DNA of 64,000 bases from Isoetes taiwanensis (lineage: Eukaryota > Streptophyta > Lycopodiopsida > Isoetales > Isoetaceae): the NCBI GenBank assembly GCA_021234155.1, contig JAJEKV010000039.1, positions 5,376,745-5,440,744 of the forward strand. The letters run 5' to 3'. Shown here one piece after another: positions 10,787 through 53,417 of the stretch (position 1 is the first letter of the stretch; every line of letters starts with the position of its first letter). The notes beneath the pieces are model-generated. The model made no database searches. It was not told the origin of the DNA and saw nothing but the letters and a program-made list of their open reading frames with translations. The position numbers and the translations under genes are program-made.

Positions 10787-10794
10787 CTTTTTAT

Positions 10795-13047: not shown

Positions 13048-13058
13048 CTTTCGGAGCT

Positions 13059-14050: not shown

Positions 14051-14099
14051 ATCTTGTCACTAATAGTCCATTTTTGCATTCATATAGATTGCAAAGAAA

Positions 14100-15031
14100 T
14101 GTCAACCACTTAAATGGCAGCATAACCTATATTTGTGGGACTTGTCCTTTCAAGATGACCACCTACACCATAGTTTAAAAACTAGATGCCTAAATGTTTA
14201 CCTTTTATCAAGTTGGACATTTTATAACAAATGCACAATGGTTTTGATTCAGCTAGCTACGCATTTGAAGAAAAAGTTCACATCAAACCTTACAAAATTG
14301 AGGTTAAAAAACTCAGACGACTATGAAAATAAATGTCTCCCTCCCTCTCTCCCTTGACAAGTGCAATGAAAAAAGATCTTGTTCGAAGCATCTAAGAAGC
14401 TGGAATTATTATTTTGTCCTAAACATATGCTAAGCATTTGTAGAAGTTTGACCAGAAGTTTACTATATCAAAGCACATGTGTACCAGTGAAAGCACAGTG
14501 AAACAATAAGCAAGCTAAGTTGTGTTGATATGCAGGGCACGCCCATTTTTACCAGTTCCATGTCTGTATCCAGCAACACTTTATAGTTCCTTTTTTCTGT
14601 ACAACGTAATTCTTTCAAGACAAGAGACTTTATCATATATGTAGATATGCCAAGCAGGAGAGGGATGGTAGGATGCAAAACGATAGTTCCAACAATACTG
14701 ATATGGAAGTAAAGGTGTTCTATTTGATCTTCTCTATACCAAAATGGACACGGTGGTCTAAAAGTGGCCTCACATTGTGGGCAGTCAAAAAAGAATTCTG
14801 AAACGTTTCTAAAATGAAGACAGATACGGAGGGCCAGGAGGTCAATTCTCATGGACACCTCAACACCGAGGTAAACTGTCTCAATCGAGAGGAGAAACAA
14901 CAATTTAGGTGAAACAACATCAAGTGGAAATATTTCTGTATATAAGGAGGCAACAGAAGGAGCAAAAAGCAAGATACATACATGGAAAAAATGCGGGCGT
15001 TGATGATAATCCTCGCCATATACAGCGCTGC
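14100..15031 (+). repeat. Downstream tandem copy carrying the live germin-like promoter
   Basis: This is the second unit of a direct tandem duplication (start-to-start spacing 1041 bp, end-to-end 981 bp). It runs from TGTCAACCACTTAAATGGCAG through the promoter into the first 17 codons of the intact germin-like gene. Relative to the first unit it has a 66-bp deletion near 14488. Part of it also occurs at 9351-9705. Confidence 0.75.
14938..14947 (+). promoter_or_regulatory. Putative TATA box of germin-like gene
   Basis: GTATATAAGG lies about 35 bp before the ATG at 14982. This implies a very short leader if it is used as a TATA box. The same sequence is conserved in the aborted upstream copy near 13957. 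Confidence 0.45.
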
Positions 15032-15668
15032 AAAGGTTTCTGTAACAGAAGCCGAATCCGTGGCGCTGCAAGATTTCTGCGTGGGGGATCTGAATGCTAC
15101 GGTGCAGGTAAACGGCTACCCTTGCAGATCGAAGAAGTCCGTAACAGCGGATGATTTTGTATCTACTCTGCTCAGAACTCCAGAAAATGTCACAGAAAAT
15201 CTGGGCTCCTATGCTAACCTAATAACCGTAGATGTATTTCCAGCCCTCAATACGCAGGGTATCTCCTTAGCCCGCATTGATTTTGCCCCACATGGCCTTA
15301 ACCCTCCACATATCCACCCCCGTGGCGCCGAAGCCTTCCACGTCATCTCCGGTACCCTTTACTCTGGGTTTGTCTCCACTGACAATACCCTCTATGCCAC
15401 AACCTTGCAAGCTGGTGATACCATGGTCTTCCCCATGGGCCTCCTTCATTTCCAAATGAATCTTAATGATACCTCTGCTGTTGCATTAGCCTCCCTCAGT
15501 AGCCAAAATCCTGGTCGATGGGATGTCGCGCAGTCACTGTTTGATTCGGATCCTCTTATAACTGATGCTCTTATCAAGAAGAACTTTGTTGGCCTTAAAG
15601 ATAAGGATGTTGCTCTGCTTCGAAAGGTTGTCAGCAAGGCCTATGCAGTCAAAGCTAACCGCATGTGA
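14982..15668 (+). CDS. Germin-like protein (cupin), apoplastic
   Basis: This is an intact intronless frame of 228 residues, the normal family size. Residues 1-24 form a signal peptide. Cys33 and Cys48 are placed for the conserved N-terminal disulphide. Cupin box 1 (GLNPPHIHPRGAE) supplies His110, His112 and Glu117, and box 2 (PMGLLHFQMN) supplies His156, so all four metal ligands are present. NAT at 38-40 is a likely glycosylation site. The family forms manganese-binding oligomers in the cell wall, with superoxide dismutase or oxalate oxidase activity in some members. Which activity applies here cannot be told. The start MEKMRAL is preferred because it follows the TATA-like box; Met at 14991 is an alternative. 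The promoter lies in a tandem duplication. Confidence 0.92.
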   Translation: MEKMRALMIILAIYSAAKVSVTEAESVALQDFCVGDLNATVQVNGYPCRSKKSVTADDFVSTLLRTPENVTENLGSYANLITVDVFPALNTQGISLARIDFAPHGLNPPHIHPRGAEAFHVISGTLYSGFVSTDNTLYATTLQAGDTMVFPMGLLHFQMNLNDTSAVALASLSSQNPGRWDVAQSLFDSDPLITDALIKKNFVGLKDKDVALLRKVVSKAYAVKANRM

Positions 15669-26125: not shown

Positions 26126-27641
26126 GTCGCTCTTGCATATCAAGCCGCTAATAAGGTGCTCACCTTCAAACTATCACAAATCGAGGTGCTGCTCGACGAG
26201 AATGGTAAAGAGCGAATCAGATAAGGCATGAGAGTTATTTAGCACATGGTATGGCAAAATAGTAGAGAAAGAACGAGATTTTCGTCAGAAACATGCAGAA
26301 GAGTTTGAGGAGGAGCTAGAGGAGCCAGTTGATGCAACTACTGATGTATATAATAATTTTTGTCTGACAGTAGACATTATGGCAGAGTGTAACAGGTCTA
26401 CCAATGCATATGGAGGCATTCTTCATAGCTTCATGGCTAGAGCTGTACCTGACGTGAAACCATGTCCTATGACTAGTTTGCCTTCACTGAGCATGAAAGC
26501 TTTAATTAAGATATTTTCGAAGGCTGATCATGAGCGAATTAGGAGGTTTTTGAAGAGACTACCTGCAGAACTATCCAGGCAAGAAGGCAAAGAAATTTTT
26601 TACAGCCTAGATATCATGTTCAACACATACATGATTTACACTAAGTTAAACAAAGATGTTGGTTCTTCTTCAAGTGTGCAGGTCGCTCAGATAGAACGTC
26701 CCGCCTCACCAGTAGAGGAGCAGATCGATTCTGAGAAAGAGAAGCTCATACTGGAAAATGAGGAGAATGAGGTTTTGGAAGAGGAGGTCTCCGAGAAGAA
26801 ACTGTCTACTTGGGAGTTATCAGAAGCATATCCCATCCACATAGGTGGGAAACCGTACTTGTTGCTGCCTGATATATCTGAAGTGACAAGGCTGAGAGAG
26901 GACGAGATACTAGGCCAGATATATGCTCATGTTGTAGGCCTGGGAGGACTTATAGACTTTGAGTCTGATGTTCCCAGACAAATAATGGAGGTTGTGACTT
27001 ATGATGGATCCTCAATACCTCCAGAGAACGCATTTGACATTGTCATGCAGCAAGCTGAAGCAGGGTATGAAGCAGTGAAAGATGTCATATTTGAAGCTCC
27101 CAGCTCTTCAAACACTACTTCTGTATTCATAGAACATGAGCTGTCGAAGTCTTCTTTCTCAATAACAAACCCAACAGTTGTCGAACGTGATATAAGAGAG
27201 GTATTTATCTCGTTTTGTTTTTTATTTCTTACTTAAATCTGATGTTCCTTTTATGCAGGAGTTATTTATTGATGACTTTTGTGCAAGGCATGAGAGAACC
27301 ACCCTAGGTCGGGATGCTAGTATTGCACATTATATGGGCTACATTTACAAGGGGGGAAATTATTGTGTTTCACAATAAATATAGTCCATCTGGAGCAGAA
27401 GAGGTCTTCAAGCTTAAAGCTCTGTCCTTAGCTGGCAACCATGTTTCCCTAGCCGTGAACTATGATCGAATTATAGCAGTAGTACTCTGCCCTTGCAAAT
27501 AAAGCAGCTCTAGGCTTGAGTGGAGCGGATAAGGAAGCATTGTGCTTGTTCTGTGCACAGAAGGACCCTAATATATTGTGCACAGGACCTTCTGTCCTGT
27601 GCACAGAAGGTCCCGATGCCAAGAAAAGAAAATGTACTTGA
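26120..27641 (+). pseudogene. Locus A protein X, decayed (homologue of 52669-53417)
   Basis: A long open stretch (about 26230-27200, after a frameshift from 26120-26220) encodes an acidic protein: an EFEEELEEPVD opening, then VPDVKPCPMTSLPS, an acidic linker and GGKPYLLLPDISEV, REDEILGQIYAHV and LIDFESDVPRQI. A GT-AG intron at about 27201-27259 leads to a second exon that shifts frame twice before a Lys/Arg-rich end (DAKKRKCT) and a stop at 27641. Three blocks line up with the locus B ORFs: VPDVKP with VPKCRP, YLLLPDI with YLLLEDI, and EDEILGQIY with KEEILYEL. No known domain was recognised. The acidic, nuclear-localisation-like features would suit a chromatin or histone partner, but that is a guess. 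Confidence 0.45.
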
Positions 27642-28100: not shown

Positions 28101-28184
28101 TTTTTAATTCTAGGTGTTTATGGGATTGGGAGAGACAATACTGGTTATTTGAATTTCTGCTCCTCTTAAAACCCGCTCATGTCC

Positions 28185-28720
28185 ATGGAAGGCGCTAGCT
28201 CTGATATCCCACAAAATGAGGTGCTTGACAAGTGCCGGAATCTTGACGAGGTCATTACTAGTAGCGCCACCAATCTAGAGCCCATGACAGTTTTTCCCTT
28301 CACAACCCAACAGATGGACGTCGAAGACCCTATCCTTCCAGAAGGGTTCCAGTAAAAGCTTGGAAATGTCGTCCAGGACATTAACAATAGCGTGGACGAA
28401 TTTTTCCAAAACCCGGCAGTGTTTCCTACACGGGTTTCCTTGCTGAGCTCCGGTAAGGTTGTTGGGGAAGGAGTTTTCCGCGAGGCCTCTGTATACCACA
28501 ATATTCCAGTTCCAGATGATTGTATTGTGGTAGCATTGGACACAGCCAGTCTGCCTTCTCCACCCCTGGCACGGAGTCAGTAGCAGAAGCCGTGGGGTCA
28601 TATGTCATGTGGCCAAGACTGATGACATCCATGTCTGGCGTGGAGAAAAGATCTTTCGAGTTCGTGTGCAATGAGCTGGATTATATGTTGGGAGATTAGA
28701 GGGGGACGTCTACTCACGGC
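28185..28720 (+). pseudogene. Locus A gene 3, N-terminal part: DUF8039-like transposon protein
   Basis: The ATG at 28185 opens an acidic frame with an in-frame TAA at 28353. The frame continues to TRVSLLSSGKVVGEGVF, YHNIPVPDDCIVVALD and, after a +1 shift, VAEAVGSYVMWPRL. The sequence order (small-residue strand, then H-x-x-P-(L/V)-x-D-D-C, ending with a G-x-(Y/F)-V-x-WP motif) matches the DUF8039-type domain common in plant Ulp1-linked DNA transposon proteins. It leads through a Gln/Asp repeat tract toward the H3-like region on the same strand and may be the same original gene. The stops and frameshift make it non-functional. Confidence 0.45.
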
Positions 28721-28869: not shown

Positions 28870-29568
28870 CGATCAGAGGCTTAAGTGAGATCAGCAGGAT
28901 CTGCAAGTGCATCAACAGGACCAGCATGATCAAAAGATCAGCAGGATCAGGATGATCAGTAGGATCAACAGCATCAGCAGGACCAGCATGATCAGCAGGA
29001 TCAGGATGATAGCGGGAAGCCCAGTTCCAGTGGAACAGCTACTGTGAAACCTCATTCCTGGCGTAAGCAAAAATCCACGCCCAAGAGATCCAGCCCGGCA
29101 ACTAGGCTTGTTCCTAGTTAGAGACAAGCTGAGAGAGATGCAGCCAGGGAGATGGACAAGCATGGAAATAAGCGGAAACCGAAGGAAGGGGAGCCCAGTA
29201 TTAAATATGGTGGCCCTGAGAAGGTAAAGGGTGCTCCTCCTGGCATCCAAGCTTTACAGGAGATTAGGTACTGGCAGGCACGCACCCAAGCACGCACCCA
29301 ACCTCTGATTCCCAAGCTTGCCTTTGCTAGAATGGTGAGGTACGAGATGCAGGACATCGTTGAGAGGAGAAAGGAATTAATGAAGAAGAGGAGGGAGGGA
29401 GCATCGGATTATGTTTCGATGGTGGAGGAGGAGGTGAACAGAATTCAAACAGAGGCCTTGGATATACTACAAGAGGCAGCAGAGGCTCATTTAGTTAGCC
29501 TCTTCGATGTCTTAATTATTAATCAAAATAGAACAAACTTCACAGCGATAGGAAGTATGCAATAGAGT
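28870..29568 (+). pseudogene. Locus A histone H3/CENH3-like fold with Gln/Asp-rich and basic tail
   Basis: Locus A's last frame has a Q/D/H repeat tract (28870-29010), then a basic tail (SWRKQKSTPKRSSPATR), an in-frame TAG at 29119, a Lys-rich stretch and a histone core. The core reads PPGIQALQEIRYWQ (H3 alpha-N), PLIPKLAFARMVR (alpha-1) and EALDILQEAAEAHLVSLFD (alpha-2). The IRYWQ-T-LIPK-PFARLVR style is nearer to centromeric H3 variants than to canonical H3. Oddities are a duplicated ARTQ before alpha-1, about 25 extra charged residues between alpha-1 and alpha-2, and loss of alpha-3 before the stop at 29565. Such a protein could not form a normal nucleosome as it stands. Confidence 0.6.
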
Positions 29569-34989: not shown

Positions 34990-35945
34990 TTTGCAGCGAA
35001 AATGAAGACATACTCCTGCCAGAAATTATCTCCGACCGAGATCCAAAGTTCATCAGTGCCTTCTGGTAGGATCTCTTCACGACGATTGGAACGAAGCTGT
35101 CCATGAGCACGGCCTATCATCCACAGACGGATGGGCAAACGGAGCGAGTCAACAGAATTCTGGAAGATATGCTCCGAAGCTATGTCTGGAACAAGCAAGG
35201 TATGTGGGAGGAATTTATTCATTTGGTGGAGTTTGCATACAATAGCACCAAGCAGGAATCATCCCAAATGTCGCCGTTCATGATCAACTATGGCTACCAA
35301 TGCCTAACTCCAGACACTTGGCACAACCCCGTGTCAAAAGTGGAAGTGTTGCAACAAATGTTGAGCGACATGCAGCAGCTTGTGGAAGAAGTTCGAGGGT
35401 ACCTTCTAGCAGCAAGAAGTCGGCAGAAGAGCATTGCCGACAAACATCGGACAGTCAGAGAATTCCAAGTTGGAGATGACGTATGGCTCAAGATCAAGGT
35501 AAAGCAGGCGAAGCTCCGCATCGGAAATTGCAAGAAGCTTGCTCCAAGGTGGGCTGGACCCTTCAGAATAGTCCAGAGAGTGGGTAACCAATCCTACAAG
35601 TTGGACTTACCAGCACACTTAAAGATCCACAAAGTCTTCCACGTGAGCTTGCTGAAGAAGCACACTCCCAACCCAGAGGAAGTTTTGGACACTCCAACGA
35701 TGCTGGAAATGACAGAAGAGCAGTTGGAAATAGTTCGAGAACTAATTCTTGATAAAGCATTCAAGAAAACAAGGAGATCGGAGTTCCTCCAATACTTGGT
35801 CAAGTGGAAACACTTGCCAGTGGAAGACGCAACATGGGTACTTAAAAGAGATTTGGAAAAACAATACCCACAATTTATGGAGCAATGGGACGGCAAGGTC
35901 ATCTCCGAAGAAATCGACTCAGGCATGTCGATTTGTGTAGATTAA
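34990..35945 (+). pseudogene. Ty3/gypsy chromovirus integrase C-terminal half with chromodomain
   Basis: The frame runs from IISDRDPKFISAFW (second catalytic Asp of the DDE integrase core) through an in-frame TAG at 35067 to STAYHPQTDGQTERVNR, which includes the region of the catalytic Glu. It then has the GPY/F-type region (LAPRWAGPFRIVQRVG, YKLDLP), HVFHVSLLKK-like KVFHVSLLKK, and a C-terminal chromodomain (LQYLVKWKHLPVEDATWV). This identifies a chromovirus, whose chromodomain steers integration to heterochromatin. The N-terminal integrase, RT and LTRs are missing. About 90 bp upstream contains a local duplication (GCAGCGAAAATGAAGA). It ends with TAA at 35943-35945. Confidence 0.88.
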
Positions 35946-36921
35946 TAGCTTGCTTAGTATAATCTACGCATGCAACCTATGAGGTAAGGGTTGCATGCGT
36001 TGTAACCGATGATGAGATTACTACGGTGATCTCTAGGACGTGGTGTAACGTCAATGTAGGCATGACCGCGGTGCCGCTTGGAAAGTCTACTTCTGTCCCA
36101 CGGAAGTAGACGACCTCGAGAGAAAGGAGGTCATTGAGGAATGCATTGATAGGAAAAGCACCTCTAGCCCCATATATGCTTTGATAGGAGGAATCTGGCC
36201 TTCACGCCCATATACGGGAAGGACCTATCCTCCACGCTGGGCAAGTAAAGGTGTAGGCACTTGAGAGCACTGATGACCATTTCTCATTAAGGTTTTCCTT
36301 GAAAATCCGGAAGGGCGGGGTCTTTCATCCCGATGAGAAGCTGTCATCAATCTTCTTACATTTTCTTAGCCTATGCAGCGGTTGATTTATCCTTTGTCTG
36401 GTACTCTTTATTTGACATCGTGCTCGTCCAGTTTCAGAGCATTTTTCAAGATTTTCAAGAACTTCTACCCCTAGTACGGGGAACCAATTTGTACTCGGTG
36501 TTTCAAACAACTCAATGAGAACATCACTTCACTTGCCAGCTTATTTGCTTCATAGGACCCATCCTAAGAATGTCCTATTCTATTACTTTATGCATATTCT
36601 TTTCTTGTTTAGGGCTCCTGCTTGTTTGCAATTTACTTTTTCTATATTTTACACGTCCCATTTTTTTCCTTTTTCCTAGTCCAATTGCCACTTTACAAAG
36701 GCAATATTGTTTAGTAGTGCTTTTCGATATGCTCTACCTGGTGCTAAGTTTCCATTTTTAAATGGGCCTTAGTGTTAGTAAAAGAGGCTGAATAATGAAC
36801 ACTTAAGGTGCAAAGCAAGAAAACATGGAATGTTAGAAAAGTACACCAACTTTAAGCAAACAATTTTATGTACAATGAGTGCCTCATCCTTCTTTGGTAA
36901 TGAAAAGCTAAAAGAGTTCAA
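35946..36921. other. Retroelement 3' flank and intergenic DNA
   Basis: After the integrase stop there is a hairpin GCATGCAACCTA...GGTTGCATGC (about 35966-36000). An imperfect palindrome (TGATGACCATTTCTCAT ... ATGAGAAGCTGTCATCA) lies at about 36270-36350. This may be the element's 3' non-coding region. Beyond 36400 lies the unannotated 3' flank of the receptor kinase. Confidence 0.35.
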
Positions 36922-39900
36922 CTACTTGACGTGTATATGGATTGGCTCCTTCCTCCTTGGCCTTGCCTCTAATAACATGGTTACCACATCTCTCATGGAT
37001 GGCCTTTCTTGAGGACATCTACTGGTGCAAAGCAAAGCAATGCGCAGCACCAGCATCATCTCCTCTTGCACTGAACTGCAAGAAGCACCAACACTTGTAT
37101 CCAAAACACTAGCAATCTCATCCTTGCCTTGAAGCTTCCATCTCACCCACTCCACTATATTCATATTGTCACCAAATTCAGGCTCTACATGCCTCTTACC
37201 CGTCAGAAGCTCAAGTAGCACAACCCCGAAACTGTAAATATCGCCCTTTACGTCTACTTTCATTGTGTAGGCATATTCTGCAAATGAAAATCATGGCTCG
37301 TGTCAATGGTTATTCAATACAAAATAACAAATCAAACAATTTGCTCTTTGTTGTAGTGAGAAAGAATAATTACCAGGTGCAATGTATCCATATGACCCTG
37401 CAACTACAGACATTGGTTCATTGCTCTCAACAAGCTTAGCTACTCCAAAGTCTGCAACCCGAGCTTCCATATTGCAATCTAGCAAAATGTTGTTAGATTT
37501 CACATCTCTATGCACTATCTGTGGAAAGCAATCATGGTGCAGGTAACAGAGACCTTGTGCCACTCCTATTGCAATATTATATCTGGTTACCCAATCAGCG
37601 AGGCCCGTGGACACCCCTCGGCCATGAAGAAGTTCGCCAAGGCTGCCATTAGGCATGTACTCGTATATCAACAAGTTGGTCTCATTGTTAGAGCAACAAC
37701 CTAAAAGCCTCACAATATTTCTGTGTTTTATACTTCCCAATACATTCACCTCTGCAAAGAATCCTTTATCCTGGTAGTTGGAGGTCTCTGTGGACAGGCT
37801 TTTAAGCTTCTTCACAGCCACCACTTCCCCATTTGACATTTCTGCCTTGTACACAGTTCCAGCAGACCCTTTTCCAATGACATTAATTTCATCCAAACAC
37901 TCCAAAACCTCATATGCAGTGAATCCTAACTTCTGAAATGCAGTCAGCCTCCACTCACGAGGTCCACATCTGTCACTGAATCTGCTGCAGAAAAAGGGAC
38001 TGTAATTGTTGTGATAATATTTAGATGCTGCTATCAAAATTGCCATGCTAATTGTCACAATAATGACTACCATCCATATAACTGAAGATGATCCTCTTTT
38101 TGATGTTGAATCAGAAGATTGAGCAGACAACTTTCCACATGATCTTAACATGGAGTCTTCCCACAGTTGTATATTTCCTTGAAATGACGAAACATTTTCA
38201 GTCTTAAAAATGCCCTCTGAAGGCAGGCACCCAGTGATATTGTTGTAGGAGATATTAAAAGACTCAAGATTTCTTGCATTTTCAAACCCAATAGGAATGC
38301 TGCCATTGAGATTATTCTCAGATAAATCCAGAATAGCAAGTATAGGAAGCTCCAACAAAGAGGCAGGTATCTCACCTTCTAAAGCATTCATTCTCAGATT
38401 TAAAGAGTACAGGCGCTGACAACTTCCAATTTGATCTGGAATTCTTCCAGAAAAGTTATTCCTCGACAAATCCAGCTTTGCAAGTATCCCTGCTTGTCCA
38501 ATCTGATTTCCAATGCTTCCTGACAGCCAATTTCCTGATACATGAAACTCCTCCAAGCTAGGCAGACTCCAGACTTCAGGTGGTATGCTTCCACTCAACT
38601 CATTATCTGAAAAGTCAATAAATGACAAGGAAGGTGCAGTGGAAATGGCTGCTGGAATGCTTCCTGAAAGCTTGTTACCAGCCATCTCAAGCCTGCTCAA
38701 ATTTACCATCCCTCCAAAGCTGCCAGGTACAGACCCTTCAAACCGATTCTCATGGAGCCTGACCCTGATCAATCTCTTACAATTACTAAGATCAGGAATG
38801 GGACCAGATAAGTTATTTTTAAAAAGCTCAAGCTTTATAAGAGCACCTCCTTTGCAGATTGTGTCAGGAATAGGGCCTTCAAAATTATTTGAAGATAAGT
38901 CAATCCAGCTAAGACCAGAAGCAGTGCCCAGTCTAGGAGGAAGTGGCCCTCTAAACGAGTTTGTGAAGATCTTGAGAGTTTGAAGCTTTGGAAAATCGCC
39001 GACAAAGGTTGGCACTGTCCCATTGAACTGGTTAATCATGAGACTAAGCAAGGATAAGTTCTGGAGCTTGGAAAACTCCTCAGGAATCCCACCAACTAAT
39101 GCATTGTCTGAGACATCAAGAGACATGAGGCTGGTCATGTTGCCAAGCTCTGGAGGCAAGTGCCCTGTAAGTTTGTTTTGAAACAAAAAGGTACTGTTAC
39201 AAACAGAGAGATTACCCAGCTCTGTTGGTATCTCTCCTGAAAGGTTACAAGAAGCAAGGTCTAAATATTCAAGCTTAGAAAGCCTACCAAGCTCCTTTGG
39301 TATGCCCCCTGAGAACACATTGTAGCCCAGCTCTAACCTTTTCAGATCAGACAGGTTTCCAAGCTCTGGAGGCAGAAAACCTGAGAGTAGATTTCCAGAG
39401 AGGGCGAGCACTTGAAGCTTAGAAATCTTAGTGTACTCTATAGGTATGGAGCCCTCAAAATAACTGCCTCCAAGGTTGAGGTACTCAAGATTTGGAAGAA
39501 ATGTTAAATCTACTGGAAGAGGACCAGTGAAGTTATTGTTGAAGGCATCAAGATAAACAAGAGATGTAAGGTTCCGAAACGAAGGAAAGGTGCCAGAAAA
39601 AGCATTTATTCTCAAGTCAATCCTATTCAGTGAAGAAATGAGAGCTATGGAAGGAGGGAGTGGTCCTGAAAGCTGATTATCAGCCACATTGAGAAAGATG
39701 AGTGTGTCTAGAAGATGAATAGATTCTGAGAGCTGACCTGTTAGATTCAAAGAATGGAGATCGAGTCCGATGATGGTACCTGATGCATTGCATATTACTC
39801 CAGTCCAGGCACATGGCAGAGGATTTGAAGCCTGCCAATCTGAAAGATGTCTCTCCGTATCATTAAAGGTGTTCTTGATGGTCAGAAGCACTTTCACAAC

Positions 39901-39987
39901 ATCAGGAGAATCGGTTAGACAATATGAACAAGAGAAAAGGAAGAAAAAACAGAGGCTAGTAAGTGCAGTTTTCATTGATGATCTCAT
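36922..39987 (-). CDS. LRR receptor-like kinase, PXY/TDR type (clade XI)
   Basis: Two exons (39987-37374 and 37277-36922) with a 96-bp GT-AG intron join in frame at GYIAP|EYAYT to give 989 residues. Order: signal peptide 1-24, LRR N-cap 27-66, about 20 LRRs 70-595, transmembrane helix about 636-656, kinase about 700-970. Kinase motifs are complete: P-loop [12 protein letters not shown] (705-716), Lys726, HRD at 826-828 and DFG at 846-848, so it is an active-type RD kinase. [13 protein letters not shown] and [13 protein letters not shown] match the TDIF receptor PXY/TDR more than CLV1 or BAM. Relatives sit in the plasma membrane, bind CLE41/44-type peptides and control vascular stem cells. Ligand identity here is inference. 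ATG 39987 begins MRSSMKTAL; Met5 is an alternative. Confidence 0.93.
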
Positions 39988-42446
39988 TTCTGCTCAGCTA
40001 TGGAAGAAATACCCATGTGGGTTCTTGCTATTTCTACTGATCAACAGATACGAAAACACCAGGCACAAATAATCCCATCCTGGTTAATGCGGTTTCTGCA
40101 GATCAGATACGAAAAAAGAGACTGCAGCAGAATGTGAAAAGATTGGCCTGCTGGTACTGCTTGGCATAGTATAGGAAAAGATATAAAGAAGAATGATCAT
40201 GCTCTGCCACAAATCTATATCCGCAATACGAACTAGAGCACTAGCGATACAGTCCAATGCTTTTAGCAGGACCCATTTGTTTTTAAGCCCTAGGCTGCCA
40301 TATCTGGCATTCCGTTCACACAGAAAGAGGCAGACAGAGTAAAGCAGAAAAAAAGACATAAAATAATCCATATGTGCCCTCACGCCAAGAGCACCTTCTC
40401 CATCTTCACGAAAGCCGCGAATCCTTTTGTTTTTACAAACCATGCTTACCTTACCTATTCTTGAAGAATGGTTGCTTCTTTTCCGTTGCAGGGGTGCCCT
40501 TTTCCATCATAGCCGAGGTACAGAAAAAACAGAACCCAGACCAGGAATCATTGGTCCGGTGCAAGCCCAAATCATAGTTTATTGGGTCTGCGCCTTATTG
40601 GGTGGCATCGGATTTGCATAAAAAATTAATACATGTTTTCTCGTGCTCGCTACACTGCAGCTTGATATTGCCCGTGTGCTTAGCATCAGCCATGATGTCT
40701 GCAGACCTTGTTTTTTTCCTTCCCTTCATCATTCCTTCAGCGCGTATCATTCTTCTCAGACTTTAAATAATCTAAAGAAATGTTGCTTTCCTTCCTCTGG
40801 ATCCATATTCATGTGTTTTATAATCATGTCTTTACTTCGATCCTTGGCCCTTGAATTCGTCATTTTTCTTCGCGTTTCACTATAGCAGTCAAAGCATACC
40901 ATGCTTATTTTACAGTTTATAATACCTAATCCAAATCTTACTGCTTATCTGCTCTGTTATCAAGGATTCTGCTAAAACCCAAAAATCAATGATACCCACG
41001 TTCTGGCTCATAAGAACCCTAACCCTGATTTTCATCCCCGATGCAAAATCTGTCAAATACGACCGATTCCGCATAGATTTTTTTTTCCTTTTTTTATCAA
41101 TAACAACCAATTCATAACCTCAGAACCGAGAAGCTTGATCATTGATCCGAGGCCATTAATGCAATCTTGAACATGATTTAAGATTCAAATCTTTGTTTAA
41201 TCTGGGGCGTGGACCAAGAAGAAATACCAAGAGGTCTGGATTTATCATTTGTGGCCTGGTGCAATTATGAGGCGGAGGATGAAGAATGCTGCCAAAGCAT
41301 GCTTTTGCTTAGAAAAATGGAAAAGGGGCTTCCACTACGGCAGACTGTTGCTAAGGATTTGTTGGTGGATCTAAAAAGCCAGCAGAAATGATTCTTCAGA
41401 GTCGTCTTTTTCTTCTTTGCAAGCCATGGAGAATAAATAATATTTGTAATGTCCCCTTTGTCAACCCTCTCTTGTTTGGAAAAATGTTCCCATGTCCCAA
41501 ACAACAAGATGTTCCATAATTCCCCATATATATAACCAAGAGAATCTACTCACAACTTGTCTAAATTTACTATTTCAAACACTCTGGAAGTGCCAAACTC
41601 TTGAGCATCATGTTTCATCATGAATTAACCTAGGTTTATGCAAGTTCCCTTTTCTATTAAGGAAGCATGTAGCCAATTGCACCACATACCACATCTGATA
41701 ATGCAAAGATCTTATATCGTACGACATAATTGTACCTTGAAGTTGGGATTACATACATATAGTGTTTAGAAATCCAATGACAAAATTATTCTTCATTATC
41801 TTAACTCTCGAACTCTTTTCTTATGATTTCTATATTTGCTTCGTCTCTCCGTCCACAACTTGTAATGGAATATCCCTTAGCCCGGGACCCTTGCAAGTTC
41901 TTTTGATCTGACCGTTGCGTACCGTTAGATCAAATTAAATTATCTACATCTTCTTTTTTATTTTGGGAGCATGTTGGGTTCCGTGCCAAGGGAACGCCGC
42001 ATCTTACGCCGCATGCGGCGTTCCCTTTCCTCTTGCGTCTCCCCTGCGGCATCAGTTACCGCCATTGAATGCCGGACATTTTGAAATGGACGTCGCCTCG
42101 AATGGGAACACCTCGATGCAATTCTCACTGCTCTACCATTTTTGCGCTGTTGATGTGGGTCGTGTGTCTGATCGGCAGAGGGTGAGTACAGTCGAAATGC
42201 TTGGAATGGCCAAACGTGATGCAGCAAAGTAACCATAGGATTGTGTTATTTCTCAGCATTTTAGCTTTTGGAAAACAAAGAGATCATTTGTGAAGTGTTC
42301 ATTGAAGGTAGCAGCTTAAGAAAATTTTGTCCTTAGCACGTTTATGAAGTCTGCAGCTAGAGAGGAGCATTATTTTTCATCTCTTCTTCGGAGCCGGAAA
42401 AGGCATGTGCAAGGTATAAGCTACGTAGATTAATTTTGTTGTTCCC
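39988..42446. other. Upstream region of the receptor kinase; no other gene recognised
   Basis: The first kilobase is likely promoter and leader of the receptor kinase (minus strand). I could not single out a TATA box. Frames at 40374-40621 and 41209-41391 have no known domain. A GC-rich palindrome lies at 41988-42027. Confidence 0.35.
41988..42027. repeat. GC-rich palindrome of a dispersed repeat end (copy 2, inverted)
   Basis: AAGGGAACGCCGCAT and ATGCGGCGTTCCCTT form a perfect 15-bp stem around a 10-base loop. The outer flank (GTTGGGTTCCGTGCC) is the inverse of the flank at 33571-33590, so the two are opposite-orientation copies of one repeat. Confidence 0.5.
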
Positions 42447-42803
42447 TTTTTTTTTTTTTTTCGTGTATGCGTTTCCAACAGCTATCTTTTGGCATGCCAT
42501 GAAGTCTGAAAATCTCTTTGGTGAAGAGCTTTGCCGTGTCCATAGCTGTGTCCGTGGTCTTGCAAGGCACGAAATGGGCCATCTTCGACAACTTGTCGAC
42601 CACGACCATCAAGGCATCCTTACCTCTTACTGTCCTTGGCAGTCCTGTTATAAAGTCCATGCTGACGACTTCCCACTTAGCGTTTGGCACCGCTAATGGT
42701 TCCAATGCTCCTGGTATTCGGAGTTGTTCTGCCTTTATTTGCTGGCATAGCTGACACTCCTTGATGTAGCGAGCTATCTGCTTCTTCATTCCCGGGTGAA
42801 AGA
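42447..42803 (-). pseudogene. Ty3/gypsy integrase N-terminal fragment ending in an A tract
   Basis: On the minus strand the frame begins HPGMKKQIARYIKECQLCQQ, the H-C-C end of the integrase zinc-binding domain. It continues through WEVVSMDFITGLP (first catalytic Asp) and VVVDKLSKMAHFVPC to DTAKLFTKEIFRLHGMP, where homology stops. After about 25 bases comes a pure run of 15 A (plus 42447-42461). It covers the integrase half that is missing from 34990-35945. The A run raises the chance of LINE-type retroposition, but no target duplication was found. Confidence 0.8.
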
Positions 42804-44239
42804 AATCAAGAGGAAAAAATGAGTGAGGATAAGAAGGTAAAGGACCCCAAAATGTAGGACAAAAGAGACGCGCATATATAATGATGAAATGGACGGGAGA
42901 AAATGGGATCGTGAATAGAGGAACAGAGCACATGGACAACGAAGATAAGGTCATATAATGCAAACGTCTGATAAGAAGAAGCAATGGGAGGATCAAATTG
43001 AGTTAAAAGGCTATGTGATAATGGGACAATGAGTAAGAACCTTGCAGACAAATACAACGACTACCCAACAACAAAGAGGATAAGAGAATAAGATATAAAG
43101 GAAACCAATTTATCTGTGAAAAAATGCCAAAAACAAAAAGCTATGAAACAATGAGAGCAAGTAAGATGAGTTTATATCAAGGGATAAGCAAAACAAATGC
43201 TAAATACCAGTTCACCTACGAAACAACTGAGCATATGCATCGAGATTAAAGAGATCAAAGTGGACAGAAAATGAAAGAAGGGACTAACCACATGAAAAGA
43301 ACTCAAGGACTCGAGAGAGCATGCATATTAGAAAAGGATAAAGTACAGACACGAAAAAGTGCACAATAGAATGATTAGAGCGATCAGACAAATGGGACAA
43401 AAATAAAATGTATGAGCAACTATGGTATAAGGTAATCAAGACCGAGGGTGCAACTGGGATATCCAGAACAGAGGGAATGATCCACAGATATATCGGGCAA
43501 CAGAGAAAAAGAAAACAACAGAGATTGACAGTACCAATAATGGAATGGAACTAACTACACAAGGGCACTGAAGAGCTGAAGAGCTAAAGAAAATAAGCAA
43601 ACGAGATACAATCAAAACACTATTTAACACAAGACAAAAAATAGAACATATTAGATCAATCAGAACAAATAGAACCAAAGGAACCAAACGAAGAAATGTA
43701 GGAAAGGGCACGAGGGAAGAAAAAACCATATCAATAAGTGAGACTAGCAAGACAAGACAACAAGATGAAAGAGGTAAAAAGATAACTAAACGCTAAGTAG
43801 TGAGTGTTAAAGTAGAGGAGATTAATTTGGAAGAGAAATGCAGGGGAGAAGGAGAGACATTGTTGAGGTTGGGGCAGAAAAAGATCACTTGCTCTCAAGG
43901 GCCATAAATTTTCGAGGCGATTCTTGCACCATTGCGTAGAGGACATTTGAATTGACTAAAACCCTCCAAAAAAGCCCCATCAAGAGATGGCCCAGTCAAA
44001 GATTTTTAGATGTTGCACGTAGGACATTTTAGGTGTTTATTTTTTAATTTAAAAATATACAAACATCCAAGGCGCAACATACGGGTGTGTATTTCTGCCG
44101 TATTTAAAAGAAATAAAAAAAAAAACTCAAGTTTAGATGTTTCTTTTTGGGTACTTTTCTTGTGCTTCCTTGAGTCTCTCCCAGCTGCCATAGCCATCGT
44201 ACCTCCGTCTGTACCGCCGTACCTCTTCCATAGATAGCT
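42804..44239. other. Purine-rich non-coding stretch
   Basis: From about 42800 to 43900 the plus strand is strongly A/G-biased, so long minus-strand frames rich in Leu, Phe and Ser arise (43436-43946) with no domain. No gene is supported. Confidence 0.35.
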
Positions 44240-46202
44240 GCCACTGTTCTTCACTAAGAGTCAAGTATACTAAATTAGCAATTAGTAACTAACTATGTTA
44301 ATTAATTATTGATAATTTAGTTTAGAGGTTGCCACCTAACCCAAATAGATTGGGCAAGGTGGAACTGCCAAACTTGGTTTAGCCAAATTGGGACTTCACC
44401 TTGGGGGATCCACCTTCTTGATAAGGGATATGCCACTTGCGTGTATAGGGACACAAAAAAAACCCCTATATACACCATTTTTCAAATGGACAACCCCTAG
44501 CATACAATATTTGAATGTTGCTTCAAACATAACCCCTCCCGATTTTATACTTCATTTCATCCCTAAAAAACCCCTTCCATACAATTACGTAAAAACATTA
44601 TTTTTACATGTTGACCAAGTGTTTATGTAATATAAGTTGTAGAATGATGTAGTAGATCGTATGTCTTCTTCCATGTTCTCACCTGCAATGCACAAAATCA
44701 TCCATGTTTTCCCATATACTTCATACATTTGATCATATATGCCAAAATAGAAAACTTACAATAAGTTCCTCTCCATGTACATTTCAATTCAGGTACAACT
44801 AGACTACCAAATGAGTTTGGTCTCTACGTATCATACAGTTTGATTCCCCACCAACTATGTACCCCTCCCATTTATGTACAAGAAATCAAGAGAAAATTGG
44901 TACTTTTTTCCTTATGTATACATATATGAAAGCCCTAAAATGAACCCCTCCAGGTTCTTGCACGTGGCTTTGGAAGGGGCTTATAGGTGATCCCCCCTTG
45001 ACGTCACCCCCAATTTGTCCCAAATTGATTTGGGGGCAATTGGAGGAGGAGGGGCCTATTCAACCAGAAGAGCATGGAGAACTTGAGAAATATTGGATCT
45101 AGCCAAGATACTGATTAGTAGGCTTATCTAGCTTGAGATTTAAGGATTAATACTTGTGTGCTTAGATGAATGATTAGCGTATTAATGCTCTATATTGAAG
45201 TTATGAATGGATTTATGATTTACGGTGGTTCTTTTGCTGCACCTCTTATGCTTGTGGGGTAAGGAGGGTAGAGACCTAAAACCTAGTAGGATTATAGATG
45301 TTCCTAGCTAGAATCCCATAAATCCCAATAAATTCAGCCTGTGCACAATAACCCACCTAGTTATGGATGCTATGTTGTGATTGAGCACTAGACAACGGAC
45401 ACAATCGTGAAGTGGAGGTGGGGCCTTGTTGAGCGTGACGACTGGGACATCTATAGTGTGCTAGGCTTATAGCCGGCCAGTGCATGTGTGCTGGCCCCCT
45501 GGGTCGCAGGTATCGTGTATGGTTAAAGTTCGACCTATGGATTTTGGGGGTTAAAGTTAGGTATGGACGTGCGTCTCATGATCCTTTAGCCAACTATAGA
45601 ACCCTCGTGCTCTGGAAAGGGACTTGTCTGCCTAATCGGATCGGGAAGATGCAACTTGGAGTAGCCTCATAGGGTGATTCTATGAGATCACGTCTTCGGA
45701 AGGCTACAATCATGCCACATCATGTTTCAACCTATCTGCAAAGTGTGCACAGGAAAGCTGGATGGAGTGGACTACCCTACCAACGTTCTACGCCAGCCAA
45801 TGCCATTGTCATGATTCTGTCTATTGGTATACGGTGACCCTGACCGTCAGTTGATCCGCCTTGGAGTCTGAGCTCGAGGCGAACCCTCATTTATGATGCA
45901 GTTTATATGTTATGTTGATACTATCTGATGTTCGTATTGATGATGGATGAGCCACCTTTCGTGATGGCATCTTATTTGTATATATTGTTGCTAGTGCTAA
46001 TATGTATATACGCTTCCGCTGTATAGGATATCCTAAAGAAGGCATGGGGCAAATGACATCTCCATGTCCTTCACTCGGACACTTGGCCATCATGACTGGT
46101 CCGAGTCAGCCGGAGGGCATTTCCTGGTGATAGAGTTGCTGGGAAAGGGGATTTCCCATATTTATATGGTAGGAGCATCGTATAGGTTTAGGGAGCGTCA
46201 CA
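44240..46202 (+). mobile_element. Degenerate solo LTR of the histone-bearing retrotransposon family
   Basis: From about 45050 to 46202 this matches the LTR at 48045-50677 block by block. Shared blocks include GTAGAGACCTAAA, CAGCCTGTGCA, GTGTGCTAGGCTTATAG, CTTCGGAAGGCTACAA, AAGTGTGCACAGGA, ATACGCTTCCGC and the final GGGAGCGTCACA at 46202. No primer binding site follows, so it is a solo or isolated LTR. The 5' part (44240-44400) is only weakly similar, and the expected TGTGACG start was not found. An insertion with inverted ends interrupts it at about 44365-45040. Confidence 0.7.
44365..45040. mobile_element. Inverted-repeat insertion within the degenerate LTR
   Basis: CCAAATTGGGACTTCACCTT followed by GGGGGATCCACC near 44383-44412 is mirrored by GGTGATCCCCCCTTGACGTC followed by ACCCCCAATTTGTCCC near 44987-45020. 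The DNA between them (about 570 bp, rich in CCCCT) has no counterpart in the 48045-50677 LTR. No coding frame. The exact ends are uncertain because the outer arms merge with LTR sequence. Confidence 0.4.
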
Positions 46203-48044: not shown

Positions 48045-50677
48045 TGTGACGTTCCATGTAAGTATACGGTATACGTATAGCTAACCTAACACGTCATCAA
48101 GGTATTAGAACCATTGAGGACTAACCTATACGAGGGTTATTGCAATTAACCTAATCTAAATAGAGTAAGTAATAGTATTAATTAGTAAAATAGGCTAATT
48201 AGAGTGCGCCACTTGGCCTAATTCGATTGACCATGGGCAGTTTGCCATTTTTTGGTGGCAAATTGAGCTCCCAGCCCAATTCTACCCTAAATTCGAGTTT
48301 GGGAAGAGTTGAGGGAGGAAGGAGCTGTTGCAACCTAACACCTGACCAGTTCATTAGATGTTCTTCGAGACAATGGGTCCAGCCAAGACACAGATCAATC
48401 CTTAGGTAGTTGTGTGCTATTCTAACCCTTGTTTGCGTAGATGGATGATTGGATTCTATTCTATGATCTACTTATGATGATAATGGATGTCTGTATCTGA
48501 TTACTGTTTCTCTTTCTGTTCCTCTTTCTGTTCCTCCTGTGTGTTGTGTTGGATTAAGGGGGGGTAGAGACCTAAAGGCTATCTAGATTTAGTGATGCTG
48601 ATACAATTCAATGCTTATGGAAAACTAACAACTGAACAACAACATCTTATTTGAAGATCAAGATCCAAGATCATCATATATACCACAGACAAATACATTG
48701 ATGCACGTTTAACCACCCAACCGGGTCCACAGGATTATGGCAATCATCTGGCAACTGACTCAGCAAACAGTATCTGGCTACTCCGCATAGACCATGAGCA
48801 AACAATATCTGGCTACTCCGCGTAGACCATTGGGCAAAGACAATATCTGGCTTATTGGCCCTCTAGGCTAGTCTAGCTACTCCACGTAGCCACACATCAT
48901 AAAAGCAATTGCAGATCTGTGAAGTTGCTATGGCAGTAATCTGTGACCCCTTGTCACATTTTCGGCCATTACTCTCTCATACAAATGAATTACAGAATGT
49001 GCTGCTCCAATTCGGAAACTAGACTCCGAGACGGTTCCGATGAGCTAACGATCGCTTCAATTGGAGGGTCAAAGCATGGAGGTGGGGGACACTTTTTGTG
49101 TCAGCGACACATGGTGCTTAGGGGGTGCTTTCCGGAGCTATTTTCTTTGTATTTTTGAAAAATATTTTTCTTTTATTTTTTTGATATTTTTTCCTGAAAC
49201 GCACTTATATTACGCCTTGGAATACAAAATTTCAGCTTCATCGGAGTTATAGAAAAAAAGATAAAAATAAGTAAAATTTCCTACATTAGGTGCTTAGGGG
49301 GTGCTTGGCTGGCGCAAAAATGCCCCCCAGCTCCATGCTTTGACCCTGGAGCTCTGGTTGCGGAGATATGTCCAACTGAAGTTTTGGTTCTATTTATAGA
49401 TCTCTCTGCGACTTTGGCCTTTTTAAACATGCAGTTGCCTTTTTCTTTTTTTTTTTTTTTTTTTTTTTTTTGAAGAACAGTTGCCTTTTTCTCAAAATAT
49501 CTCCTTGCCTTTAATTAGATTATAGGACTTATCATCGGATATTATCTATGGCCTTTTTGTGCGAAATAGTCCGCCCCTTTTGCGTGATCATTGATTCCCC
49601 TTGATATCTCTCCAACCAATGGTTCTTGACCCCATCCTAGATATCACAACCTTGCCATAGTTCCACAACTTTGCCATATTTTGCCATGCCCCATAACCCT
49701 GGCGCCGTGGACCACTCCCTCGTACTTGCCTCCATATCAGATGCTCCTAGTTAGAACCCCTTAGATCCCATTAATTGCAGCCTGTGCATAAGATCCCACC
49801 TGGCTGTGGATGCTATGATGTGATTCAGCACTAAATAACGAGTATGATGACGAATCGGAGGTGGGGTCCTACCTGCGCGGCTACAGGACTCCTATAGTGT
49901 GCTAGGCTTATAGTCGGTCACAGAGAGGGCCGGGTATGGGTCTGACACTCCCTGGGTCGCAGGTGACGTGCCTATATGGACGCCCTGGACTCGAACGGGC
50001 AGGTGAGCCCGCCTTTAGATTTAGGGAAGTAAGTCGGGTACGGACACGGGGTCACTGATATGGCACCGGTTCTCTAGCACACCCAGGAACCCATCATACT
50101 CAGGGAGGGGACGCTTCTCTAACCTGCCTCATCAGACCAGGGAGATGTAACTCAGAGTAGTTCCATAGGGTGATTCCATGGGATTGCATCTTCGGAAGGC
50201 TACAACCACGCCATAGCATGATCCAGCCTATCTACAAAGTGTGCACAGGAGGGGTGGATGGAATGGACTACCCTAGCCATTGTTCTATGCCAGCCAATGC
50301 CATGTTATACCTCTGTCTGCTGTTATTCGGAAGCCTTGACTGTCAGTCGACCCCCATGACTCAGACCCGGGTTGAAGCCCTTATTTATGGTGTTCTTCCT
50401 TTGTTATGTTGGTGTTCTGTTGTATTCTTATGGATGATGATGGGCCACCTGGTATATTATTTATTTTGCTAACATTGTATATACGCTTCCGCCATATAGG
50501 ATTCCCATAGAAGGCGTGGGACGAATGACACCTCCGTGTCCTTCACCCAGACACTTGCCCATCACAAGTGGTCCGAGTCAAACGGAGGGCCTTTCTATGG
50601 TGGTATAGTCGCCATGGAAGAGGGGATTTCCCATATCTGTATGATGGGAACATCGTATAGAGCCGGGGAGCGTCACA
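48045..50677 (+). mobile_element. 5' LTR of the histone-H3-bearing retrotransposon (locus B)
   Basis: This LTR begins TGTGACG (48045) and ends CGTCACA (50677), a perfect 7-bp terminal inverted repeat with the TG...CA ends typical of LTRs. One base later lies TGGTATCAGAGC, a tRNA-Met primer site, which fixes its identity as the 5' LTR. Without the nested insertion (48599-49739) and its duplicated 5 bp it is about 1.49 kb. It shares most blocks with the solo LTR ending at 46202. No matching 3' LTR was found downstream in the window. Confidence 0.85.
48599..49739. mobile_element. Nested solo LTR inside the 5' LTR
   Basis: 1141 bp start with TGATA and end with TATCA (TG...CA, 5-bp inverted ends). 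They are flanked by GATGC at 48594-48598 and 49740-49744, a 5-bp target duplication. The homologous LTR at about 45290 lacks this block. No coding frame and no primer site are present, as expected of a solo LTR left by recombination. Confidence 0.82.
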
Positions 50678-50678
50678 A

Positions 50679-50690
50679 TGGTATCAGAGC
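50679..50690 (+). promoter_or_regulatory. Primer binding site (tRNA-Met type)
   Basis: TGGTATCAGAGC is the standard plant LTR-retrotransposon primer site complementary to the 3' end of initiator tRNA-Met. It sits one base after the LTR's CA end. Confidence 0.9.
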
Positions 50691-51254: not shown

Positions 51255-51263
51255 CTGGCTCCT

Positions 51264-52142
51264 GTGTATTACTTTGATGCCCTCACCCCTGCTTTGCCTA
51301 CTGTTAAGCTATGGCCCGCATCAAGGGAACAACAAAGCTACTCTTCATGCAATGTTTCTCAGCTCTTTGCAGAACTCGGCCGTCGTCTCGGCGACACGCC
51401 AGATGGCCCTGCCAAGGTCGAGCTCCTCCTAGAGCAGCTAGTCCAGCGGTTCGTGGAGGGAGACAGAAGTCTTTATCCTATATTCCACCTTATTGAGCGG
51501 TTTTTGTTAAAACTTAATGTTGAGGGAGAGAAATACACCCTCGTGGAGCAAGAAGATCAAGTCTTAACCCTTGTTCATTACTACCCTCCGGACTTGCCCG
51601 AAGATGCTGCTCTTGCTGATGCGCACCGGGAAGCTGAAAGAGTTATGGCCATGGCACAAGAGGAAGACGCCCGGCAGATTGCGAGCGGGGATCCAACTGT
51701 TCGAGGGAGGGAATATCTCTACTTAGGAAGAGGAAGAGCCATAAACCTGGGAGATAATTTTACGTTGCCCCCGTATTATTATGATGAGGAGGCCCAAATT
51801 TTTATTTGGGAGGATATACCGGCACCCTTCACAGAAGAGGATCTCTTGCGGGTTGAGCTCGACATGGTGGCCCGACCCGAGAGGTATCTTGCAGAGATCT
51901 GGAGATGGATAGAGATACGCCTGTTACGAGAGCAGCACGCCGAGCAAAAAGCGGCATGGCTAGTAGAAGAGCAGGCAAGGAAGACTGCTGAGGAGCCCGC
52001 CAACCGCACCATACAACGGAAGCGGAAGACCACTAATCCTACAAGCTTGGGCCCTCAGTACAAAACCAGCCTCCAAGCGATAGGTGGCATAGCAAAGGAG
52101 AAGGGGGATACGCGTCGTGAGACACTAGTTCAGCAGGCCTGA
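51264..52142 (+). pseudogene. Locus B ORF1 N-terminal part, fused in frame to histone H3
   Basis: A 292-codon open frame lies in the gag position of the retrotransposon. It has no gag, zinc-knuckle or protease motif that I recognise. It includes a Tyr/Pro/acidic block (PPYYYDEEAQIFIWEDIPAP), two Glu/Arg-rich probable coiled coils (near residues 117-140 and 220-245) and a basic nuclear-localisation-like IQRKRKTT near 252. It ends in TGA and the same frame continues straight into the H3 core. Just before the TGA, KTSLQAIGG resembles the H3 tail (QTARKSTGG). The open frame has no ATG at its upstream end; an ATG at 51311 in another frame (MARIKGTTK) could be the old start, implying an early frameshift. 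Confidence 0.5.
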
Positions 52143-52496
52143 CACCCGGCCACTGGAGGCAAGACCCTTCATCTTGTACCCCCACCTCGTCAGAGGAAGC
52201 CCCACAGATTCAGACCGGGAACAGTGGCCTTGCAGGAGATCCGAAAGTATCAAAAGTCGACGGAGCTCCTATTGCGGAAGTTACCTTTCCAACGGCTCAT
52301 CCGAGAAATTGCTCAACAATTCAAGACGGACCTGCGGTTCCAAATCCATGCCATTCTCACCTTGCAGGAAGGTGTCGAAGATTACCTCGTCGCTCTCTTC
52401 GGCGATGCCAATCTTTGCGCCATACATGCTAAACGCGTGACTATTATGCCAAAGGATTTGGCTTTGGCACGTCGGATTCGCGGGGATCGTAACTAA
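52143..52496 (+). pseudogene. Histone H3 core domain inside the retrotransposon
   Basis: In frame with 51264-52142 across one TGA, this reads HPATGG, then an eight-residue insert-like stretch, and [19 protein letters not shown]. Next come [19 protein letters not shown] (alpha-1), LRFQ (loop 1 and start of alpha-2), [20 protein letters not shown] (alpha-2), [14 protein letters not shown] (loop 2) and [12 protein letters not shown] (alpha-3), ending at TAA 52494-52496. It covers the complete H3 histone fold at about 80% identity to plant H3 by eye. Changes cluster in early alpha-2 ([13 protein letters not shown] against SSAVMALQEASEA). The TGA sits where H3 has Arg26, so a CGA-to-TGA transition is the simplest cause. 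Whether it is translated is unknown. Confidence 0.88.
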
Positions 52497-52668
52497 ATCC
52501 CCCATTTTGTAATGCATTTGTATTTTTTTTCATGTACCTAAGTTTTTGTATTAATACGATGTTGTATATTATCGGCTATCCGTATTACTGTCTGTTCCTT
52601 AATGCAAACCACACACATTGTTCCTTGGCCTTCTATACTTTTCTTCCTTCTCCTCCCATTAAGCTGCT

Positions 52669-53417
52669 ATGGATTACGCCAAGCGCCACCAGTGGTACCA
52701 GGATGGAGAGCACTGGGATTCCCAGGTCCCATTCGAGCTTCTCCACCAATATTTGTTGCAGGAGGTGGATCTCATCACGAATATGGAGGCTCACCCTGAT
52801 TATGCAGATTTCTTGGAGTTTTATACCCAAGAAATGGTTCCAAAATGTCGGCCTTATGGAGACCCTCCTCAGTTATATCTTGACAGAGATATCCTCGTGC
52901 AGATGTTAGGCGATGATCGACACGCTGAGGACACTCTCTGTGGCATTCAACGACGGGCCAAGCATGCTCCCATTCTTCACTTTGGCCATCAACAAACCTA
53001 TTTTGAGGTCCGCTTTGCCTTGGCCATCCTTATATACCAACATGTAGAGGCTGACTCTACTCCATCGAAAAAAGGGAAGTTGCCTATTTCTACTGATCCT
53101 GAAGAAGAAGAGCGGATTAGCCATACAGATTTTACCCATTAGCCACTGAAATGCCCATGCACTGGATCCAGGGCTATAAACTCGCCCGACTAGATGGGCT
53201 TTCGACGATCCTTCTCAACAATCAGGAGTATCTGCTGCTCGAAGATATCCTGTGGGCATACTATGTTATCGCCGATTCCCGACATGTGAAGAAAGAGGAG
53301 ATCCTGTACGAGCTAGCTGAGTACTGTCAAGGCGATTTCCTTCATTTTTCACCCCCTGAGTATCCACCCCAGATCCAGCAGTTGCTCAGGTTCCATCCAG
53401 AAGATGGAAGGTCGTAG
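52669..53417 (+). pseudogene. Locus B protein X (two frames), homologue of locus A protein X
   Basis: The ATG at 52669 opens 157 codons (MDYAKRHQWYQDGEHW ... VDLI, MVPKCRPYGDPPQLYL, LAILIYQHVEADSTP) to a stop at 53142. The next frame (53151-53417) continues with WIQGYKLARLDGLSTI, NNQEYLLLEDILWAY, KKEEILYELAEYC, FLHFSPPEYPPQI and ends DGRS. One frameshift near 53140 probably split a protein of about 245 residues. The order of blocks parallels 26250-27150. It begins 172 bp after the H3 stop on the same strand, so it is likely the next gene of the same element. No known family was recognised. Confidence 0.5.

Follow-up and report, generated by a model that had tools for sequence, protein, structure and literature searches.

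A histone H3 fold at the end of an extra open reading frame in a Ty3/gypsy chromovirus of Isoetes taiwanensis, and its candidate partner protein

Plant Ty3/gypsy chromoviruses (Tekay, Galadriel, Reina, CRM and Tcn1 clades) have LTRs, a primer site of the initiator-Met type, 5-bp target duplications, gag, the order protease-RT-RNase H-integrase and a C-terminal chromodomain. The element of Isoetes described here shares all of these, but it differs in having two additional sense ORFs between leader and gag, one of which ends in a histone H3. Plant LTR elements with additional ORFs have been reviewed (PMC7264820); they likewise keep these ORFs, for the most part in the interval from pol to the 3' LTR, whereas those of the Isoetes element precede gag, and the word "histone" is absent from the main text of that review. 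Orchid LTR elements with an m6A demethylase domain also retain an extra ORF; in that study "histone" occurs twice, neither time for a histone fold (PMC9289625). In two Isoetes genome papers it occurs nowhere (PMC8566536, PMC10541799). A literature search of titles and abstract openings, with subscription papers and preprints mostly outside its scope, found no LTR element with a histone.

By analogy, the nearest precedent is found in fungi, where hAT DNA transposons of Dothideomycetes have likewise captured and amplified an H3 gene (PMC6710886, which cites PMC3538342 as a further report of this capture). According to the excerpted text of the former, the copies of P. fijiensis are inactivated, and 23 of the 26 copies of P. 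tritici-repentis are said to look functional. These are, unlike the element of Isoetes, DNA transposons of another kingdom, and the same excerpts describe no fusion of the H3 and no second protein comparable to the one that we call X.

The window, i.e. the whole stretch of DNA that was analysed, comprises 64,000 nucleotides of the I. taiwanensis contig JAJEKV010000039.1; its main features are given in Table 1. At locus B the initial annotation had reported a complete H3 fold followed 172 bp later by X, and the histone profile, the match to H3.3 (ungapped over 100 residues) and the start codon of X agree with it: the H3 stop codon ends at 52496 and the first in-frame ATG of X stands at 52669. 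Upstream of H3, the open piece is 37% identical to residues 14-330 of ORF1 in copy L014 (39% in alignment A2), and the H3 of locus B is, as read from the sequence, the C-terminus of a larger ORF1 protein in which roughly 330 residues precede the histone. The 5' LTR was recognised by blastn to five LTRs of the family at 48045-48102 (79-91%) and 49741-50677 (66-70%), exceeds the intact LTRs of L014 and L017 (about 1.63-1.68 kb, TGTGACG...CGTCACA) in length, and retains the CGTCACA end at 50671-50677. One base past this end lies TGGTATCAGAGC, which we take to be a primer site of the initiator Met tRNA type. Compared with intact X (48-53% identity), the X of locus B is frameshifted and ends at residue 245 of 440, and tblastn and blastn found neither gag-pol nor an LTR downstream of it in the window, which leaves copy B with its 5' LTR only. 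Given a frameshifted and shortened X, a 5' LTR and a primer site, without gag-pol or 3' LTR, locus B is a dead copy of an LTR retrotransposon. A free H3 gene beside X is ruled out for this locus, as the N-terminal part of ORF1 (ORF1-N) and the LTR belong to the same unit. The family has inserted into this stretch more than once, as a further LTR remnant assigned to it (45255-46202, + strand, about 66-67%) is found upstream of locus B.

Table 1. Features of loci A and B in the window (positions counted from its first nucleotide)
Feature	Position	Strand	Evidence or remark
Locus A: probable distant relative of X (X_A)	26232..27233	+	hhalign P 2.8e-4; 0/300 shuffles as high
Locus A: diverged H3-like segment	29122..29562	+	PF00125 7.8e-7, 29.8 bits (cut-off 26.4)
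Locus B: 5' LTR of the element	48045..50677	+	Decayed; blastn to five LTRs
Locus B: primer binding site TGGTATCAGAGC	50679..50690	+	Only exact match within the window
Locus B: ORF1 N-terminal part and linker	51255..52139	+	295-aa open piece in the same frame as H3; start region decayed
Locus B: in-frame TGA splitting ORF1 from H3	52140..52142	+	Read in the sequence
Locus B: C-terminal histone H3 fold of ORF1	52143..52493	+	PF00125 E 5.9e-40; PDB H3.3 E 5.4e-51
Locus B: X (ORF2), first part	52669..53139 (open from 52663)	+	53% identical to L014 X residues 4-153
Locus B: X (ORF2), second part, shifted frame, cut short	53121..53414	+	48% identical to X residues 153-245

Further copies were collected with a histone profile search of the plant's own genome (an assembly of 1,658,258,908 bases in 1110 contigs), from which the best 150 scores were used; the 8705 hits of this search are first-look candidates and not copies. 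In the first 15 of the 150 rows the match to the histone profile begins at position 2, and all eight loci fetched from these (L001-L008) are ordinary H3 genes with full tails. Among the other 135 rows, 20 loci with long frames (10 kb each) and 12 hand-picked loci with short frames (3.8 kb each) were retrieved. ORF1 sequence was found upstream of H3 in all 32 of these loci from the best 150 H3 scores (in L034 and L037 the linker part only), and X close downstream in 28 (within 1 kb in 19 of the 20 long and nine of the 12 short loci); in L017, L032, L034 and L037 X was not found. The proposal that H3 and X form a recurrent unit is thus borne out within this sample, in which 28 of 32 H3 loci have the two adjoining. 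In L017 and L034 gag follows H3, so that copies of the element may manage without X or obtain it in trans; the spacing differs between these two copies, possibly because X was lost twice.

The 10-kb loci, searched with tblastn, show what surrounds the pair: ORF1-N and H3 are present in all 20, X in 19, and gag and/or RT downstream in 18, the exceptions being L019 and L026. The primer site is exact in 13 of the 20 and stands one base after CGTCACA in 12. Two insertions were traced to their 3' ends, namely L014 with L030 (about 13.2 kb, LTRs 96.5% identical, target duplication GTGGC) and L017 with L029 (about 11.2 kb, LTRs 90.0% identical, target duplication CAATC), and both have TGTGACG...CGTCACA LTRs, the primer site, a purine tract and 5-bp duplications. 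L017 scores above the Pfam cut-offs for gag capsid, protease, RT, RNase H and the integrase zinc-binding domain, below its cut-off for a zinc knuckle, and just below for the integrase core (30.3 against 32.6 bits). Its continuation L029 carries a chromodomain (PF00385, 9.7e-9), a domain that was above cut-off in both sequences examined, the other being a remnant in the window at 35070-35942. The order is LTR, primer site, ORF1 (N-part, linker and H3 core), X, gag, protease, RT, RNase H, integrase, chromodomain and LTR. Taken together, the LTRs, duplications, primer site, purine tract, Pfam domains from gag to integrase and chromodomain identify a multi-copy Ty3/gypsy chromovirus of Isoetes, with ORF1 and X as two extra ORFs before gag. 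A hAT transposon with a captured H3 is rejected for this element, since LTR anatomy and pol were seen instead. Of the two-gene module originally proposed, the joint recurrence of H3 and X stands; the notion of a free H3 and X does not, as both lie inside a chromovirus.

When the L029 chromodomain is compared by eye with HP1, the tryptophan of the aromatic cage is kept and the other two cage residues are not, and with one residue in three kept, a link to H3K9 methylation is doubtful. The positions of the aromatic cage follow the chromodomain data excerpted from PMC3350952. Other traces of the family or its relatives include a rearranged copy (L024, 1393-9501 as oriented), in which LTR and leader sequence occur twice around ORF1-X and are followed by RT. 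Within the window, the stretch 35025-36089 (+) contains the integrase C-terminus (82.6% protein identity), the chromodomain and a bit of 3' sequence of a related element, and 42487-42804 (-) a piece of integrase (80% protein identity) from a related element in the opposite orientation. The window further contains a gene for an LRR receptor kinase, split into two open pieces (36925-39993, -; Pfam LRR and kinase), and a cupin gene (14946-15665, +; Pfam), presumably of the germin-like type, beside repeats at 9349-14990 that form a tandem duplication of roughly 1 kb, with pieces 94-97% identical, plus a further partial copy.

Profile and PDB comparisons indicate a full histone H3 fold in the ORF1 of the family. 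Over residues 38-135, the identity between its 33 copies and host H3 of Isoetes, as represented by L001-L008, is 86% (2745 of 3181 aligned residues); from the host protein the element H3 differs in its rewritten tail, in core changes and in its fusion to ORF1-N. Core positions 60, 86, 87, 89, 102, 105, 107 and 124 are changed in most or all copies, and each position from 108 to 120 is host-like in at least 90% of them. Identity to the host is 39% over residues 28-37 (33 copies) and 32% over residues 1-27 (143/443, with about 13 of the 27 positions aligned per copy). Among the copies aligned at the respective site, the remaining ones being unaligned there, K4 is matched in one of 11 and K9 in two of 13; the corresponding counts are 7/14 for K14, 10/24 for K18 and 2/24 for K23. 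A lysine occupies the place of K27 in 17 of 23 aligned copies, where the alignment is uncertain, and a K27-like lysine may persist in copies of group II (see below). As the stretch upstream of the core is a basic linker, in which lysine matches come easily, we read the tail as rewritten, with K4 and K9 mostly unmatched and K27 uncertain; some tail ancestry may remain, given that 24 of the 33 alignments to host H3 extend back before residue 27.

Selection was estimated from pairwise dN/dS (Nei-Gojobori, pairs with dS over 0.05). Median values were 0.042 for H3 (79 pairs), a figure that is pushed down by the choice of loci from the best 150 H3 scores, 0.135 for ORF1-N (69 pairs), 0.196 for X (75 pairs), 0.165 for gag (134 pairs) and 0.158 for protease-RT (120 pairs), with 126, 141, 115, 2 and 0 saturated pairs left out, respectively. 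For the H3 core (residues 38-135; 196 pairs among 33 copies, pS 0.1-0.6) the median is 0.040 and the maximum 0.267. Copy B, the sole copy free of the choice by H3 score, has a median pS of 0.855 and a median pN of 0.134 in H3 against the other copies. By these estimates the H3 core of the element is strongly constrained, and the distance to one host H3 gene (median pS 0.90, pN 0.10) points to an old capture. Centromeric H3 (CENH3) has a longer loop 1 and diverges fast; this identity is excluded for locus B by the gap-free alignment to H3.3 and by the strong constraint on the family H3. The capture of H3 by transposons is known from fungal hAT elements (PMC6710886), and the H3 of the Isoetes element might likewise be a gene captured by chance and amplified along with its carrier; a dN/dS of 0.04 among copies whose silent sites are well diverged, and the ORF1 sequence preceding H3 in every one of the 32 loci (as linker only in L034 and L037), make such a passenger very improbable, and the low ratio in particular disfavours chance capture.

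No similarity was found for the rest of ORF1: in the three sequences compared with Pfam (L013, L018 and the window piece) ORF1-N has no match above cut-off, its window piece has no PDB match, and there was no homologue among 1376 scored candidates, i.e. sequences sharing short words with it, from 5.8 billion proteins (eukaryotic included). When whole ORF1 was searched, the 120 matches listed of 4338 cover 20-43% of the query and are taken to be matches to its H3 end. AlphaFold models of window pieces, made without an alignment, reached pLDDT values of 48 and 40, too low to be of any use.

X is a protein of about 440 aa with a pI of 4.4-4.7 and a charge of -34 to -45 (four stop-to-stop frames from four copies). 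It has no Pfam match up to E 0.1 (14 members), its profile has no PDB match up to E 10, and no homologue was found among 7992 scored candidates, again short-word sharers, from 5.8 billion proteins with eukaryotes included. An origin as a duplicate of ORF1-N was considered and rejected (hhalign P 0.12). The idea that X is a chaperone, loader or partner of the H3 variant is a guess, with which its acidity fits as weak evidence. Of the first 20 loci (L009-L028), 19 bear X, and 17 of these have TTAGGGTTT upstream of it; in the 13 copies in which this motif and the start codon could both be read, it precedes the latter by 58-66 nt. In group II, TATAAA precedes TTAGGGTTT or its place in eight of ten X-bearing copies and a pyrimidine-rich leader comes after it, and AAACCCTAA occurs in the leader of many of the copies L009-L028. 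Together, TTAGGGTTT, TATAAA and the pyrimidine-rich stretch are a possible internal promoter or leader for X.

Linker and H3 have a pI over 10 (four copies), and ORF1 and X both precede gag. With the very acidic X (likewise four copies), this would suit a packaging role, in which ORF1 with H4 compacts the cDNA of the element or guides its nuclear import and X keeps the basic protein soluble. We consider such a role quite improbable, because the constraint spans the entire H3 core, including residues 108-120, a pattern suggestive of genuine nucleosomes and not of unspecific DNA binding. Our preferred reading is that ORF1 is an element-made H3 variant that would pair with host H4 and enter nucleosomes, its N-part taking the place of the host H3 tail, and that X would act as its dedicated chaperone or loader; that locus B is a dead chromovirus copy encoding such a pair has, in our estimate, somewhat less than an even chance of being right in all its parts.

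How ORF1 and X relate to the remainder of the element was studied by comparing copies. When sorted by their identity in ORF1-N, the first 20 copies form groups I (eight copies), II (11) and III (one), with copy B as a fourth type. ORF1-N, H3 and X agree with each other in their pairwise identities (Pearson 0.92, 0.82 and 0.76; Spearman 0.67, 0.71 and 0.59), those of ORF1-N and H3 show no correlation with gag or RT (Pearson -0.09 to -0.15), and those of X correlate weakly with gag and RT (0.31 and 0.29); the value for gag against RT is 0.61. Between groups I and II, compared in three and seven copies, respectively, that were picked for their better gag-pol, median silent differences are 0.84 for ORF1-N, 0.87 for H3 and 0.83 for X, against 0.49 (range 0.30-0.70) for gag and 0.46 (0.26-0.50) for RT. 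In the ORF1-H3-X tree of 21 copies, groups I and II each have 100/100 support; the gag-RT tree covers 16 copies, and there the AU test rejects a monophyletic group I (p 1.9e-16). The labels still cluster on the latter tree, where group I needs two changes and group II three (3 and 19 of 500 shuffles were as low), and three of its group I rows sit on long branches. The swaps may therefore have been few, or their number is unsure. Most simply, ORF1 and X would be passed together, as a single block, from one gag-pol backbone to another, an exchange that template switching could produce. This putative exchange of the block, in which the identities of ORF1-N, H3 and X vary together, is the strongest support for the initial suggestion that H3 and X are a functional pair.

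The same comparison bears on a possible integration tether, in which the H3 part would anchor ORF1 in host nucleosomes, the N-part would recruit the integrase complex and X would be an assembly partner. ORF1 does join a histone core to an element-specific part, the integrase bears a chromodomain, and the chromodomain of a fungal element has been reported to target integration (PMC3350952). The identities of ORF1-N do not track those of gag-RT, which argues against tight co-evolution with pol, and we regard the tether as rather unlikely, with the same doubt applying to its corollary that new copies would be steered to chosen chromatin. The preferred reading of ORF1 as a nucleosomal H3 variant would itself be compatible with ORF1 nucleosomes serving as a landing pad for integrase.

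Locus A had been described as a second module of the same kind in reversed order, with X first and a diverged H3 fold after it. The H3-like fold is real, being above the Pfam cut-off and matching the ORF1 profile (hhalign E 1.1e-8); it is also weak: additional residues follow helix 1, and the match does not go beyond the end of helix 2, so that its C-terminal part remains unmatched. The two X proteins had been expected to find each other by profile. With a thin profile of 14 rows, X_A was not significant (hhalign P 0.037, probability 1.4%), and in hmmsearch, with 2000 shuffles of which 1315 received a score, 60 sequences reached the score of X_A. A profile of 47 segments did detect it over 91 columns (probability 41%), above all 300 shuffles and above every other ORF of at least 110 aa in the window except X itself. 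Since the profiles were tried in sequence, we treat X_A as a probable distant relative of X and not as a proven one, and locus A as a possible second, reversed module. Two other pieces of locus A (28170-28352 and 28356-28580) gained no support as X or ORF1-N. A minisatellite of GATCAGCAG stands before the H3-like segment (28889-29004), encodes Asp-Gln-Gln in one frame and recalls the Gln-rich linker of group II ORF1. Near locus A, blastn found no LTR match and there is no primer site with 0-1 mismatches, so that this locus, as distinct from locus B, might be a pair of host genes, or else an element of older date, related to the source of the ORF1-X cassette, with a probable X relative and an H3-like segment 1.9 kb downstream. 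The extra residues and the unmatched C-terminal part of the latter speak against this origin, which we hold to be unlikely.

Mobile elements are silenced largely via marks on the H3 tail. If ORF1 nucleosomes formed on the DNA of the element, the usual K4 and K9 sites would be absent from them (K27 being uncertain), and for this reason they could resist tail-dependent silencing. The fuller proposal is a retrotransposon that would make its own tail-rewritten H3 and a loader for it, forming nucleosomes that cannot be marked for the usual silencing, and whose cassette would be traded between lineages; we put it forward only tentatively, as an idea with more doubt than confidence behind it. The setting in a lycophyte suits such an element, given that one study dates the change of chromodomain type in plant chromoviruses to about 400 million years ago and reports both types only from the lycophyte Selaginella (PMC3350952). 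The constrained H3 core is a hint that this jumping gene may supply a chromatin protein of its own. If true, a chromovirus that encodes a constrained H3 core with a replaced tail would represent a direct attack on, or a use of, the chromatin code of its host.
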